The notes under the pieces were generated by a model. That model ran no database searches and had not been told where the DNA came from. It was given only the letters and a program-made list of their open reading frames with translations. This document shows, piece after piece, positions 3,251 to 21,938 of a DNA stretch of 42,306 nt. The DNA comes from a virus. The stretch covers positions 1 through 42,306 of IMG/VR virus record IMGVR_UViG_3300048573_000091. The stretch is one strand, 5' to 3'. Every line of letters starts with the position of its first letter. Positions within the stretch are counted from its first letter, which is position 1. The translations under genes and the position numbers were made by a program.

Positions 3251-3549
3251 TAGTCTACAATCTCTGTTGATACTTCAGTACTAATTGTATAGTACATAAT
3301 AACACCATCTTTCCACTCCTGACCGTAGTCGTACTCTACAGCACCAACACCTTCAATAAAATTACGTTCACTTCGCGTAATACAAGCAGATGCAAACTCT
3401 ACAATTTCTTCAATGCTATCTACACCAAAGATGCATTCGCTGAATTCTTTGATTAATTGTGTAATATCTACATTCGGATTAATACGAATTGTTACTTCTG
3501 ATTCTATAACTACTGCTGTTTTATATGTTTTTTCAATCTTCTCGTTCAT
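3250..3549 (-). CDS. Hypothetical protein
   Basis: A 99-residue acidic soluble protein with alternating beta-type (AVVIESEVTIRI) and helical segments. No motif is recognised. It overlaps the upstream gene by 17 bases, as expected in this compact operon. Confidence 0.65.
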   Translation of the reverse strand: MNEKIEKTYKTAVVIESEVTIRINPNVDITQLIKEFSECIFGVDSIEEIVEFASACITRSERNFIEGVGAVEYDYGQEWKDGVIMYYTISTEVSTEIVD

Positions 3550-3763
3550 ACTTGACCCTTTCTTTTAACATAGCTTCTGCCATTGTATAAGACCATTCGG
3601 CAATACCGGGACGATTAGTATCATCACTTCGTGCGAGACAAGCTTGCATTGCTAGACCTGCGAAATGATCAAGTAAAGTCATACCTTCATGTTGCCAATG
3701 AAGGACATTACCTTGACCATCATACTCGAAATTTTGTGTTGGATATGCACGTTGATTTTTCAT
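3533..3763 (-). CDS. Hypothetical phage protein
   Basis: A 76-residue protein with GMTLLDHFAGLAMQACL in the middle and EWSYTMAEAMLKER near the end. This pairing recurs in short phage and prophage proteins of unknown function. There are no catalytic motifs. The start lies directly after the upstream stop. Confidence 0.7.
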   Translation of the reverse strand: MKNQRAYPTQNFEYDGQGNVLHWQHEGMTLLDHFAGLAMQACLARSDDTNRPGIAEWSYTMAEAMLKERVKYERED

Positions 3764-4074: not shown

Positions 4075-4566
4075 TTAAAGTTCATCATACAATTGTACCA
4101 CTACATTTGATTCCTGCAGTAGTTTAACACCAGAATCATCTCTGTACTGTTGTAGATATACCACACGCTTAACTCCAGCTTGTAGCATCATAGCCGCGCA
4201 TTGTACACAAGGTGAAAGTGTAACATAAACAGTAGCGTCTACACAACTTACACCTTCACGAGCAGCTTTCATAATGCAGTTAAGTTCTGCGTGAATGACT
4301 TCTGGTTTTGTGACTAACTTGCAGCGATAACCACGAGAATCCGTAAATGGAAATACTGCATCAAAATCACCAGCATACTCGTTCGGATAAATACGATCTT
4401 CGCATTCATTAGGGCGACCCACAGCGGTGCCGTTTACGCCCCCAAGGATAACCCCGTTGTTCGTAACAAGACAAGCCCCAACTTGCGCTCTTTTAGCTTT
4501 TGATAACTTAGCATAAAGTACAGCAGTACCCATGTAAAGATCATCTGTTTGTTTTGGTGTTGCCAT
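4075..4566 (-). CDS. Deoxycytidylate deaminase-like protein
   Basis: A 163-residue zinc-dependent deaminase fold. The catalytic H-A-E lies in VIHAELNCI (about 89-97) and the metal-binding P-C-x-x-C in TLSPCVQCAAMM (about 115-126). Expected reaction for the family: dCMP to dUMP, feeding dTMP synthesis. The gene is separated from a second, shorter deaminase (5360-5704) by an HNH endonuclease gene and a hypothetical gene. The ATG overlaps the HNH stop (TAATG), so it depends on the same transcript. Riboflavin-type or tRNA deaminase activity cannot be excluded. Confidence 0.85.
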   Translation of the reverse strand: MATPKQTDDLYMGTAVLYAKLSKAKRAQVGACLVTNNGVILGGVNGTAVGRPNECEDRIYPNEYAGDFDAVFPFTDSRGYRCKLVTKPEVIHAELNCIMKAAREGVSCVDATVYVTLSPCVQCAAMMLQAGVKRVVYLQQYRDDSGVKLLQESNVVVQLYDEL

Positions 4567-5373: not shown

Positions 5374-5704
5374 ATTCTTTTACTCCTTCTTCAGATGTAT
5401 AACGAACAATTTTTACACCAAAACCCTTGAGCATAGCTTGGCAAGTTGGGCATGGTTTAGCCGTAGCCATTGTACCATCATTGTGAAACCGCTGAACAAA
5501 AACGCTATGAATATTTTTGCGACCTGATGCAAGAACAGCAGAAAGTTCAGCATGCACTTTATCTTTTTGTTCTGATTCACCTGCAATGATAGCAAAGTGC
5601 TTGGCAAGAGGATGAGACTTTGAGTAGTCATTTACACCTGTACCTAGCACTTTACCTTTTTTATCAAAGCAAGTTGCAATAACTTCATAGCGTTTGCGTG
5701 TCAA
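5360..5704 (-). CDS. Cytidine/dCMP deaminase-fold protein, TTG start
   Basis: A short (114-residue) deaminase-fold protein with HAELSAVLASG (catalytic H-A-E) and KPCPTCQAMLKGFG (P-C-x-x-C). Every plausible start is TTG: the one at 5704 follows the upstream stop by one base and has GGGG about 9 bases before it, while another at 5725 is in frame but overlaps the upstream gene. Two deaminase genes in one operon suggest either different substrates or an acquired paralogue. This one lacks the insert between zinc motifs expected of a full dCMP deaminase. Confidence 0.75.
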   Translation of the reverse strand: MTRKRYEVIATCFDKKGKVLGTGVNDYSKSHPLAKHFAIIAGESEQKDKVHAELSAVLASGRKNIHSVFVQRFHNDGTMATAKPCPTCQAMLKGFGVKIVRYTSEEGVKEYEVV

Positions 5705-19224: not shown

Positions 19225-19381
19225 GTACAATAAAGAGTATCAAACGTTGGAGCAGTATGATAAAAATGATATACTACGAGCTTGTATGTCAATGCCGCAG
19301 TCTGATCTTGGTGAACTTGCAAAACTTTATTGGAATAAAATTCTAAAAGATATTGACACAAAGATCAAAACTGATGTATAA
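19208..19381 (+). CDS. Small hypothetical protein
   Basis: A 57-residue protein from ATG 19208, chosen because GGAGG lies 8 bases upstream; an upstream in-frame start at 19190 would lack this. Overlaps the previous gene by 17 bases. Last gene before the tRNA / endonuclease interval. Confidence 0.65.
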   Translation: MSYTYKYNKEYQTLEQYDKNDILRACMSMPQSDLGELAKLYWNKILKDIDTKIKTDV

Positions 19382-19386
19382 TTGAC

Positions 19387-19415
19387 TTGATATTGTTACA
19401 ACCTTATGGTATAAT
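19387..19415 (+). promoter_or_regulatory. Promoter of the tRNA-Arg / endonuclease unit
   Basis: TTGATA (19387-19392), 17-base spacer, TATAAT (19410-19415) with extended TGG. The transcript would start near 19422, just before the long inverted repeat. Confidence 0.78.
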
Positions 19416-19426
19416 AAATATAGGTT

Positions 19427-19529
19427 CGAAAACCCTTAGTCCATCCGTGGACTAACTGGATAAGTCACAAATCTTCTAAATTTGGCATCATGTGTGTTCA
19501 AATCACACCGGATGGACTAAGGGTTTTCG
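19427..19529 (+). repeat. 21-bp perfect inverted repeat enclosing tRNA-Arg
   Basis: The arms 19427-19447 and 19509-19529 are exact reverse complements. The inner 7 bp are the tRNA acceptor stem; the outer 14 bp (CGAAAACCCTTAGT on the 5' side) extend it coaxially. Such a long helix would block the normal 5' and 3' ends of the tRNA unless cut. Confidence 0.92.
19441..19516 (+). tRNA. tRNA-Arg(UCU)
   Basis: A cloverleaf can be built by hand: acceptor CCATCCG / CGGATGG (7 bp), D arm GAC / GTC with an 11-base loop containing GG, anticodon arm CAAAT-CTTCTAA-ATTTG with anticodon TCT at 19475-19477, a 7-base variable loop, and T arm GTGTG-TTCAAAT-CACAC. Position 33 is U and 37 is A. Discriminator A, with no encoded CCA. 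The T loop and D loop are canonical. It reads AGA/AGG, the arginine codons that dominate the downstream endonuclease gene. The variable loop is two bases longer than usual. Confidence 0.85.
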
Positions 19530-19555
19530 TCTATACTAAATTATATAAGGTAACT

Positions 19556-20572
19556 ATGACTAGAGAAGAATTTTTTAAAATTGCAGCACAATATGGTTCA
19601 AGGGATAAAGTAACATTTAATTGTGTAAGTTGTGGTATTGATCATCAAAGAATTAAAAAGAATATACTCAAATCTTTTAAATCTGATACTGTAGATTTTG
19701 TATTTTGTTCTTTAGATTGTTATTGTAAATTCAACAGTACTATAGTTAATTGTAATTGTTCACACTGCGGTAAAATAATACAAAGAGTTAAAAATCAAGT
19801 TAAAGTTAAAAACTTTTGTAGTTCTTCTTGTGCAGCATCGTTAAACAACACTCTTAGACAAACCAGAAGTGAAGAAAGTCGTGATAAAACAAGTGAATCT
19901 CTAAAAAATTATTGGGAGAATATAACCGGAGATGCAACTTTACAACCTTCTGCCGTGTTAACAGAATGCGGTAACTGTCAAGGACTATTTACTAAATTGA
20001 TAGCCAATAGAAAATATTGTTCTTTGAAATGTGGAAAGGAAAATAGAAGTGATAAGAAAAAGCAAAAGCTTGCAAATGAATCAAGGAGGCATCCCAGATG
20101 TGCTGTATCTTTTGTCCCGTGTAAGAATTGTAGCATAACGATTCTTCGTTCACCTAGTCAAGGTAAACACTCAAAATTTTGTTCAAAAACTTGTCGCAGT
20201 GCATGGCAAAGCGCATTTCAATCTGAAAGGTTAAAGCACTCTGAAAATCGTAAAAATATCGGCAGACACAGAAAGTCATATTTAGAGAGTAGCTTTGAAT
20301 CTTGGTTAACTGAGAATAATATTATTTTTAAGACAGAGGTTCACTACCGTAACACTGAATTAAATAAAAGCTATTACGTTGATTTCTTGTTTGAAGATTT
20401 AAATTTAGTTATTGAACTTGATGGTAAACAACACGAAAAGACAAAAGAAAAAGACGCAATCAGAGATGAGTTCTTAAAAAGGGTGTATAATCTGAATATT
20501 GTGAGGATAACTCATAAAGAATACAAAACAAAAAGTAGAATTGATGAAATTAAGTGTTTACTTATGTTATAA
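19556..20572 (+). CDS. Zinc-finger homing endonuclease with Vsr/PD-(D/E)XK-like nuclease
   Basis: A 338-residue protein. Residues about 20-230 hold several Cys pairs (CVSCG, CSLDC, CSHCG, CSSSC, CGNCQ, CSLKC, CKNCS, CSKTC), enough for about four zinc fingers. The C-terminal domain (about 245-338) reads ESSFESWLTENNI, then YYVDFLFEDLNLVIELDGKQHE and I-V-R-I-T. This matches Vsr-like or EDxHD/PD-(D/E)XK nucleases used by some phage homing enzymes. ATG 19556 has SD AAGGTAA. An upstream in-frame ATG (19490) lies inside the tRNA and is rejected. Its arginine codons are mostly AGA/AGG. Confidence 0.85.
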   Translation: MTREEFFKIAAQYGSRDKVTFNCVSCGIDHQRIKKNILKSFKSDTVDFVFCSLDCYCKFNSTIVNCNCSHCGKIIQRVKNQVKVKNFCSSSCAASLNNTLRQTRSEESRDKTSESLKNYWENITGDATLQPSAVLTECGNCQGLFTKLIANRKYCSLKCGKENRSDKKKQKLANESRRHPRCAVSFVPCKNCSITILRSPSQGKHSKFCSKTCRSAWQSAFQSERLKHSENRKNIGRHRKSYLESSFESWLTENNIIFKTEVHYRNTELNKSYYVDFLFEDLNLVIELDGKQHEKTKEKDAIRDEFLKRVYNLNIVRITHKEYKTKSRIDEIKCLLML

Positions 20573-20657
20573 ATAGTCCCGCTGATGCCTGTTGCTCAAA
20601 TCCCTAGAGTTAGCGGCACACTTCCAGCGAGGCGGGTGTAAGTCCCGTCATTAAAAA

Positions 20658-20683
20658 TACAGTACAAGTTGCGCTGTACTGTA
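20658..20683 (+). repeat. 9-bp perfect hairpin
   Basis: TACAGTACA (20658-20666) and TGTACTGTA (20675-20683) around an 8-base loop. No T run follows, so it is more likely an RNA processing or stability element than a terminator. Confidence 0.8.
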
Positions 20684-20772
20684 GGATTTCCAGCATGAGG
20701 ATTGTCGTCCAAAATGTTGACATTTCAGTTCCCGTTATATACTTGTTGTATAATGCACTGATGTAACAAAAG

Positions 20773-20840
20773 ACACTATAATACTGGTTTAGGGACCAGA
20801 GGTTATAGTAAAGTGTATTTATGTATATTTTACTATAACC
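20773..20840 (+). repeat. Two mutually exclusive hairpins abutting tRNA-Met
   Basis: Hairpin 1: CTATAA (20776-20781) with TTATAG (20803-20808), nested CTGG (20084-type arm at 20784-20787) with CCAG (20796-20799). Hairpin 2: GGTTATAGTAAA (20801-20812) with TTTACTATAACC (20829-20840), 12 bp perfect, ending at the base before the tRNA. The segment 20801-20812 cannot pair both ways at once. Confidence 0.8.
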
Positions 20841-20915
20841 GTGAGTGAAGCCGAGAAGTCAGGCAGCGACCTCATAAGTCGTTGGAAGCAGGAGCGTTAC
20901 CTGTCGCTCACACCA
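20841..20915 (+). tRNA. tRNA-like gene with CAU anticodon and encoded CCA
   Basis: All arms have standard lengths: acceptor GTGAGTG / CGCTCAC (7 bp, one G-U), D stem GCC / GGC with a 9-base loop, anticodon arm GCGAC-CTCATAA-GTCGT (anticodon CAT at 20873-20875), 5-base variable loop, T stem GCAGG / CCTGT, then ACCA. The T loop AGCGTTA lacks the TTC signature and the D loop GAGAAGTCA lacks GG, so the usual D/T loop contact is absent. It may be a tRNA-Met or tRNA-Ile2 with unusual elbow, or a tRNA mimic. Confidence 0.7.
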
Positions 20916-20930
20916 AACAAAGGAGTAATA

Positions 20931-21110
20931 ATGGATAACCTAATAAAAACAGCAATAATATTTACATTTGTTGCTTTTCTTTTCTATATTGCAGGTTCTT
21001 TTGCAGCATGGGACTTATACCCCGGTAATTGGTCAGATATCCTTCGATGGTTAACAAGTATGTGGACATTAATTATTGGTGCTATAATTAGTTCTGCTAA
21101 TTATCGCTAA
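20931..21110 (+). CDS. Small membrane protein
   Basis: A 59-residue protein from ATG 20931 with SD AAAGGAG; an upstream in-frame start falls inside the tRNA. Two hydrophobic segments (about 5-27 and 42-55) flank a WDLYPGNWSD loop, giving a hairpin membrane topology. Function unknown. Confidence 0.7.
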   Translation: MDNLIKTAIIFTFVAFLFYIAGSFAAWDLYPGNWSDILRWLTSMWTLIIGAIISSANYR

Positions 21111-21125
21111 TAATTAAGGAGTAAC

Positions 21126-21938
21126 ATGAAAAATCTTTTGATCGGTTCGCAAGCATTGCAATACTGGAGTGCTACTTTTAAAGTAAGACCTGATTCAGAT
21201 TGGGATATTATTAGCGAACATAAAATTCAAGATCGTGCCTTGCGTATTGAAAATCATACGTTCGATACAATTGGTAACTACGCTCTATCGAATTATGCCA
21301 GTACACACTACATTACAATCGGAGGTCAAAGAGTTTACGTAGTTAACCCTGTTGGACTTGCTATTGTAAAGCGCAGTCACCTGTGGCGTGATCGTAAGTT
21401 TGAAAAGCACATGACACAATACAATATGCATTTAAAGACATATCGTGCATTCTTTACTGACAAAGATGAAGAAGTGTTAAACAAGCGTATTAAGCTCACA
21501 ATGTCAGCATATCCACAAGGTAATCCAAACTTGATGCAAACAGTAGAAGAGTTCTTTGACGATGCTGTAACCAAGAAGTACAACCATGATTACTTGCATG
21601 AGTTATTTGCTTACCACGAAGAACCTTTGTATAAAAAACTACAAAAAGATTCAAGTTTAGCGTGGTGTGATAAAAATCTGTGGTACAATCTAAGCCATGC
21701 AGACAAACTTAAATGCATTGCAGAAGAAGCTTATGTTATTTCAACTGAAAGGTTCTTAGTACCTTCAGATTGGAGTACACCAGCTAAACTAGCGTTTTAC
21801 AAGTCAGTCAACAAGATTTGTACTACACTATGTTCAGGTTGGTTTCGTTCTTACGCAATTGACAACTATACAGAAGTCTTGGATATGTTTGATGCTGCTA
21901 AATTTGAGAATGTTAAACAAATTTTACTAAAGGAGTAA
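21126..21938 (+). CDS. Putative nucleotidyltransferase-fold protein
   Basis: A 270-residue protein whose N-terminus, LLIGSQALQYW followed by PDSDWDII (about 22-29), fits the GS...DxD signature of Pol-beta-type nucleotidyltransferases. I have seen this in a phage family of unknown substrate (DUF7275-like). The rest is helical with SHLWRDRKFEKHMTQYN and YHEEPLYKKL segments. It follows a tRNA gene, so RNA end modification is conceivable but only inferred. SD AAGGAG. A later acidic residue completing the triad is not obvious. Confidence 0.55.
   Translation: MKNLLIGSQALQYWSATFKVRPDSDWDIISEHKIQDRALRIENHTFDTIGNYALSNYASTHYITIGGQRVYVVNPVGLAIVKRSHLWRDRKFEKHMTQYNMHLKTYRAFFTDKDEEVLNKRIKLTMSAYPQGNPNLMQTVEEFFDDAVTKKYNHDYLHELFAYHEEPLYKKLQKDSSLAWCDKNLWYNLSHADKLKCIAEEAYVISTERFLVPSDWSTPAKLAFYKSVNKICTTLCSGWFRSYAIDNYTEVLDMFDAAKFENVKQILLKE

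Follow-up and report, generated by a model that had tools for sequence, protein, structure and literature searches.

A putative tRNA-locus homing cassette with a helix-borne tRNA-Arg(UCU) and a Vsr-like endonuclease gene in a freshwater phage

Organization of the locus

The window analysed here is the whole 42,306-nt stretch of DNA from a freshwater phage, the host of the cassette described below (Table 1). A first-pass annotation of this DNA had placed a tRNA gene within an inverted repeat ahead of an endonuclease ORF, and its coordinates for all three were correct on re-analysis. The ORF runs from an ATG at 19556 to a stop at 20572 and begins 27 nt past the repeat, as had been stated. The promoter noticed ahead of the repeat was also recovered, ending 11 nt before it.

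Table 1. Features of the cassette and its borders, in window coordinates
Feature	Position	Strand	Basis
Resident promoter P1, TTGACA-18-TATAAT; usual driver of the tRNA-Arg(UCU) locus	19353..19382	+	12/12 consensus
Inserted cassette, 1,183 bp, in place of ~82 bp with the resident tRNA-Arg(UCU)	19386..20568	+	homology breaks against L010
Cassette promoter P2, TTGATA-17-TATAAT	19387..19415	+	11/12 consensus
5' arm of the predicted stem that hides the ribosome-binding site	19401..19424	+	fold and pair probabilities
21-bp perfect helix around the tRNA; arms 19427-19447 / 19509-19529	19427..19529	+	repeat and fold
tRNA-Arg(UCU) without encoded CCA; C1:G72, A20, C35	19441..19516	+	ARAGORN, Rfam
Leader with Shine-Dalgarno AAGG (19547-19550); 3' arm of the predicted switch	19532..19555	+	fold
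Predicted zinc-finger and Vsr-like (DUF559) homing endonuclease, 338 aa	19556..20572	+	Pfam, solved-structure profile, AlphaFold and Foldseek
Structured RNA, conserved in the phage clade; right border, outside the cassette	20574..20711	+	20-sequence alignment

The window was compared with about 50 distinct related loci fetched through the downstream DUF7275 gene (21126-21938). They come from IMG/VR, with the addition of Limnohabitans phage DC31 (L004) and Curvibacter phage P26059A (L026). Nearly all have a tRNA-Arg(UCU) at the equivalent spot. The alleles are diverse, encode the CCA and have acceptor extensions of 0-3 bp, and the P1 sequence precedes the gene in L004, L006, L010, L011, L019 and L023. 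L010, whose identity to the window is 98% in the right flank, shows the junctions: homology stops at window position 19385 (L010:2465) and resumes at 20569 (L010:2548). The 82 bp between the L010 junctions are the resident tRNA-Arg, and at that place the window has 1,183 bp in which a second promoter is followed by a tRNA-Arg(UCU) of very different sequence and then by the endonuclease gene. The resident tRNA is gone from the window and the cassette supplies one with the same anticodon. The sequence itself shows an exact replacement of a tRNA gene, the helix, the lack of CCA, two promoter-like sites, the predicted stem and a protein family linked to tRNAs.

The suggestion that the unit is a mobile package bringing its own tRNA is well supported because the cassette precisely replaces the resident tRNA-Arg(UCU) gene. 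It agrees also with a protein family that dwells in tRNA genes and with replacement tRNAs in a tRNA-Leu clade and in DC31, described below. No close copy of the endonuclease was found in the viral contigs searched, so the case for mobility rests on one insertion and the family pattern. Whereas the Leu clade and DC31 keep part of the interrupted tRNA, nothing of the resident tRNA remains in the window, and the exact target therefore cannot be read from it.

A complete tRNA at the tip of a perfect helix

ARAGORN calls a tRNA-Arg(UCU) at 19441-19517, and the Rfam tRNA model matches 19441-19516 at 51.7 bits in a scan of the sub-region, the fast scan over the whole window having overlooked it. All 35 of 35 stem pairs are Watson-Crick (21 in the helix, 4 in the D arm, 5 in the anticodon arm and 5 in the T arm), which bears out the complete cloverleaf first reported. 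The arms of the repeat match as reverse complements with an E value of 1.2e-5 and form a helix made of a 14-bp extension and the 7-bp acceptor stem, so that the perfect inverted repeat and the lengthening by 14 bp also hold. In an RNA fold check the tRNA-helix region lies 6.9 sd below shuffled sequences. Among 498 distinct tRNAs of the fetched loci, 491 have an acceptor extension of at most 7 bp, and the perfect 14-bp extension in the window is beyond chance. The D and anticodon arms are absent from the unconstrained minimum-energy fold of the tRNA region; such folds are common for unmodified tRNAs.

The anticodon is UCU, and the Arg identity bases A20 and C35 are present. The gene does not encode CCA, in contrast to the relatives at the same locus. 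ACTA follows base 72, and base 73 pairs with base -1. A tRNA without encoded CCA depends on the host for trimming of its 3' end and for adding the CCA. The tRNA is identical at no more than 51 of 74 positions to any of the 483 tRNAs compared, and its DNA has no match in phage records. The best profile fit is Arg. The C1:G72 pair is Pro-like, occurring in 25 of 34 tRNA-Pro(UGG) and in 0 of 37 other tRNA-Arg(UCU); an origin by conversion of a tRNA-Pro was rejected (Arg profile 17.1 vs 3.5 bits). An exact search with 18 bases of the helix arm returned a single unrelated contig, L005, which has no tRNA.

Leader pairing with the RCC end of a tRNA slows cleavage by RNase P and does not abolish it (PMC10731613), so the helix could be cut by RNase P alone, by RNase III first, or by both. 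The proposal that the helix is an entry point for RNase III or RNase P is possible, and a part in a ribosome-binding-site switch, as modelled below, would fit the helix better.

The endonuclease and its family

Pfam finds DUF559 (E 4e-10), DUF2726 and a zinc finger in the 338-aa protein and no GIY-YIG domain. Zinc-finger-like Cys clusters lie at the N-terminus and the DUF559 domain at the C-terminus. The AlphaFold model, in which confidence is limited to residues 61-100 and 241-338, has as its top Foldseek match 3r3p, the catalytic domain of I-Bth0305I (probability 1.00, TM 0.59 on target, E 0.0085). Eight residues with putative catalytic roles, D276, E287, D289, Q292, H293, D300, R303 and D304, are invariant across 14 relatives. 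By its modelled catalytic fold the enzyme is Vsr-like (EDxHD), with cleavage and homing as predicted activities. The gene is free-standing in a phage tRNA region, as is that of SegB. A group I intron was rejected, there being no Rfam intron match in 19300-21000 and no interrupted protein gene; that homology ends at the boundaries of the tRNA locus also runs counter to an intron-borne endonuclease.

The closest relative is 37% identical to the window protein, and the GTDB genomes searched gave generic DUF559 matches only. A profile search recovered 51 relatives from viruses; these, with the phage-record loci L027 and L028 and minus two near-duplicates, make up 51 loci. Of these 51, 49 contain tRNAs, the endonuclease gene lying in a tRNA array. 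The endonuclease gene is within 80 nt of a tRNA in 34 of 50 loci, where placing it at random in those loci gives 26% (P ~7e-14). The tRNA isotype tracks the protein tree, with 5 changes vs 13.2 when shuffled. A Leu(UAG) clade has a support of 99; elsewhere the partners are mostly Pro(UGG), with two Gly(UCC). The window endonuclease adjoins the Leu(UAG) clade within a supported clade of 11 members that includes the Gly loci.

The seven loci of the Leu clade share one arrangement, a 5' tRNA-Leu fragment followed by the endonuclease gene and then a complete tRNA-Leu(UAG). In 6 of the 7 the fragment reaches as far as the first base of the anticodon (model position 35), and in the other (L093) it stops at position 29. 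The endonuclease stop sits 9 nt inside the complete tRNA, whose D-arm region is altered. In a separate locus (L096:2586-2739) a tRNA-Pro adjoining the endonuclease gene is apparently split by ~80 nt at the anticodon (model positions 1-36 and 37-74).

The arginine codons of the window ORF had been said to be mostly AGA or AGG, the codons that its tRNA reads. This is true as a count, 18 of 23, where 30 other ORFs together have 148 of 384 (Fisher p 3e-4). As an argument it is weak because the ORF is rich in AT (its GC content is 31%, vs 37%) and AGR makes up 64-81% of the Arg codons in several other genes of the window. Codon usage was accordingly set aside as proof that the endonuclease depends on the tRNA, AT content accounting for much of it.

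HNH genes have entered the same tRNA-Arg independently in L004, L063 and L073, and a full tRNA-Arg(UCU) is kept in each (the HNH Pfam matches lie just under the cut-off in L004 and L063 and above it in L073). The HNH gene of DC31 (L004) is preceded by what is left of the resident tRNA, a short 5' piece (GCGAGTGTAG), and followed by a re-coded tRNA-Arg(UCU) that is complete and scores 44.1 bits with Rfam. L018 has the same re-coded tRNA without the HNH gene. In L063 the HNH gene is flanked by a similar re-coded tRNA-Arg and by a 102-nt tRNA-like gene, and in L073 the end of the HNH gene overlaps the tRNA-Arg(UCU) by 18 nt.

Two unusual kinds of tRNA gene were seen at these loci. The tRNA-Arg(UCU) of L004:6517-6592, L018:5242-5317 and L063:3130-3205 has no normal D-arm, scores 39.5-44.1 bits with Rfam and is missed by ARAGORN; its anticodon stem covaries (ACGCT/AGCGT vs ACGGT/ACCGT). 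The second kind is a tRNA-like gene of ~100 nt whose anticodon/variable region is enlarged and which ARAGORN labels Arg(ACG); it occurs at L011:3200-3298, L018:5327-5425, L019:5344-5442 and L063:3572-3670.

The arrangement in T4 offers another reading of these loci. The segB gene lies between tRNA-Arg and tRNA-Ile, and its product cleaves intergenic DNA of the tRNA region and promotes the inheritance of that region (PMC2988022). SegB amplifies tRNA-Tyr against Septu, and SegB genes are often found near tRNAs (PMC13096335). The window endonuclease could likewise cut somewhere in the tRNA region, the adjacent tRNA being a co-converted passenger and no evolved replacement. Cutting at a distance is frequent among free-standing endonucleases, and the window lacks a split-tRNA remnant. 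Against this, the genes of the Leu clade and of DC31 lie inside a broken tRNA and are followed by a complete replacement of the same isoacceptor, and isotype follows the protein tree. We consider the passenger reading unlikely and prefer replacement of the tRNA gene by the cassette.

Two promoter-like sites and a predicted leader switch

Transcripts that enter from upstream hide the ribosome-binding site of I-TevI, I-TevII, I-TevIII and segB in T4 and of mobE in Aeh1, and segB has its own promoter as well as the ribosome-binding-site hairpin (PMC2988022). A similar layout was computed for the window. In P1 transcripts ACCUU (19401-19405) would pair with AAGGU (19547-19551) around the helix, and the computed probability that the Shine-Dalgarno is unpaired is 0.02 from P1 and ~0.70 from P2. 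Shuffled 5' arms give a probability as low as that from P1 in 7 of 300 cases (p ~0.02). The hiding arm is missing from P2 transcripts because it overlaps P2, and these transcripts may start near 19422, ~5 nt before the helix. By computed fold the site is hidden only in upstream transcripts and the promoter lies within the 5' arm, as in the T4 type of leader switch. On this model an RNA hairpin probably times production of the endonuclease. The switch stem is not shared by L087 or by the tRNA-Pro loci. The L087 HNH gene has its own leader hairpin in place of the switch and the tRNA-Pro clade shows no general ribosome-binding-site switch, so the switch is particular to the window.

Extended helices without CCA in other phages

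In the nearest full-length relatives, L087 and L089, a CCA-less extended tRNA-Gly lies on the opposite strand, 2 and 12 nt respectively from the endonuclease stop codon. Other long helices without CCA are those of tRNA-Asn in L089, of tRNA-His in L087 (~30-35 bp, with a zinc-finger HNH gene 75 nt downstream) and of tRNA-Met in Aeromonas phages. Most are 19-23 bp in total, or about two helical turns, and CCA is absent in every long-helix case. The Aeromonas tRNA-Met(CAU) genes (L027:222-323, L147 and L148; avDM12-TAAL, Aeh1, phiAS5) share a conserved 14-bp extension. Between avDM12/PX29 and Aeh1/phiAS5 one helix pair has changed from A-U to U-A and the tRNA body is different; this compensatory change, a single event, favours selection on pairing. 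The helix probably matters, because long CCA-less helices recur and the Aeromonas pairing survives a compensatory change.

Of the 7 tRNAs extended by at least 9 bp, 4 have an endonuclease gene within 80 nt; the figure for the others is 51 of 491 (p 0.004), in a test made post hoc on loci picked through endonucleases. The other three of the 7 lie away from endonucleases, and helices of this kind are therefore not peculiar to homing.

A functionless helix might instead result from fold-back DNA repair, a broken tRNA end having annealed to its own acceptor stem, copied the 5' leader and erased the CCA. This would agree with the perfect repeat in the window, the missing CCA in all long cases and the proximity of extended tRNAs to endonuclease genes. 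It is rather unlikely, given that the helix persists in PX29/avDM12, Aeh1 and phiAS5 despite the exchanged tRNA body, that the Aeromonas helix combines its compensatory change with a kept G-U pair, and that the predicted switch stem continues the window helix. The helix might also be a stable 5' hairpin protecting the endonuclease mRNA, or a folding aid, with no switch and no coupled processing. The mRNA from the predicted P2 start would indeed begin in duplex, and long helices also occur away from endonucleases. We regard this as quite improbable: it leaves unexplained both why the Shine-Dalgarno should be hidden on P1 transcripts, as predicted, and why the tip is a complete tRNA of the displaced isoacceptor. 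That the helix-locked tRNA is a decoy for host anticodon nucleases and no translator is very improbable, since all its stems are perfect, its Arg identity bases are kept and the gene it displaces is an ordinary tRNA-Arg(UCU) that the clade conserves, although it lacks CCA, has base 73 paired, and phage tRNAs do counter tRNA-cutting defences, as T6 tRNA-Tyr does against Septu (PMC13096335).

A model for the cassette

The best explanation of the whole, and one that we judge moderately probable, is a tRNA-locus homing cassette that replaces tRNA-Arg(UCU) and carries a tRNA at the tip of a helix and a leader switch. We infer the cleavage target, homing, charging, processing and timing as follows. 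The endonuclease would cut the tRNA-Arg(UCU) region of relatives that lack it. Repair templated by a cassette-bearing genome would copy the cassette in and delete the resident tRNA-Arg(UCU). The divergent cassette tRNA would keep the function and no longer match the resident sequence, so that a resident locus of the L010 type should be cuttable and the window cassette is predicted to be resistant. On transcripts from P1 the helix would run on into the stem that hides the site, giving the tRNA and little enzyme; transcripts from P2 would begin inside the 5' arm and leave the ribosome-binding site free. Cutting of the helix in tRNA maturation, by RNase P, RNase III or both, may free the tRNA and the mRNA, and the host would then trim the 3' end and add CCA.

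Put forward more tentatively is the possibility that the family forms a home-and-rescue drive. Its isoacceptor-specific clades (Leu UAG, Pro UGG, Gly UCC and, in the window, Arg UCU) would cut at or near the anticodon, each carrying a re-coded tRNA that cannot be cut, and the rescue tRNA of the window would double as the core of the switch. If so, the phage would survive the invasion and the cassette would be hard to lose. Engineered home-and-rescue drives would then have a counterpart in nature, an invader that is needed because it brings along the gene it destroys. The model would also imply that tRNAs are matured from CCA-less helices of at least two turns. Selfish endonucleases that swap tRNA genes while function is retained could explain the changeability of phage tRNA arrays.

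Comparison with known systems

The enzyme resembles I-Bth0305I and the EDxHD group in the fold of its catalytic domain (3r3p) and in the conserved residues of the DUF559 type. I-Bth0305I is intron-borne, whereas members of the window family are free-standing, bear zinc fingers at the N-terminus and are linked to tRNA genes. Like integrative elements of tRNA genes, the cassette is inserted into a tRNA gene and preserves a complete tRNA. It differs from them in having no integrase and in replacing a whole gene beside a homing endonuclease.

With SegB of T4/T6 the cassette shares a site in the tRNA region beside tRNA-Arg, its own promoter and a predicted ribosome-binding-site hairpin. SegB is, however, a GIY-YIG enzyme that cuts tRNA intergenic DNA and the window enzyme is Vsr-like, and neither replacement of a tRNA gene nor a helix-embedded tRNA is described for SegB in PMC2988022 or PMC13096335. 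As in T4 I-TevI and Aeh1 mobE, the site would be hidden in upstream transcripts and freed by a promoter inside the arm, in the window by computed fold. The window differs in having a tRNA at the tip of the stem and a sigma70-like promoter in place of a T4 late one. The open-access literature searched yielded no description of Vsr-like endonucleases that are inserted in tRNA genes and accompanied by replacement tRNAs.

Conserved RNA and other hairpin elements near the tRNA loci

A structured RNA of ~140-165 nt (TAGTCCCG ... ATCCCTAGAGTTAG ... GGATTTC ... GTCGTCC) follows tRNA-Arg throughout the phage clade (L004, L010, L011, L019, L023, L058, L063, L073 and others). Two-sided changes occur in 12 of its 18 predicted pairs in the 20-sequence alignment, and the window copy (20574-20711) has no Rfam match. 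At window positions 20766-20930 there is a near-identical block, GACACTATAATACTGGTTTAGGGACCAGAGGTTATAGT, in most relatives. In many of them it is followed by a long stem with interchangeable inserts that leads into the DUF7275 gene.

Further hairpin elements were seen in two of the other loci. A gene resembling tRNA-Pyl(CUA) in Curvibacter phage P26059A (L026:3370-3481) lies in a 15-bp inverted repeat, and after it come more hairpin RNAs whose ends are T-arm-like. In L089 a repeat of ~60 nt (TTTAGGATACATTCAGCAA ... CGTATCCTGTT) occurs on the minus strand at 2445-2510, 3525-3590, 4245-4310 and 5625-5700; it precedes several genes and is possibly a cis-regulatory RNA.
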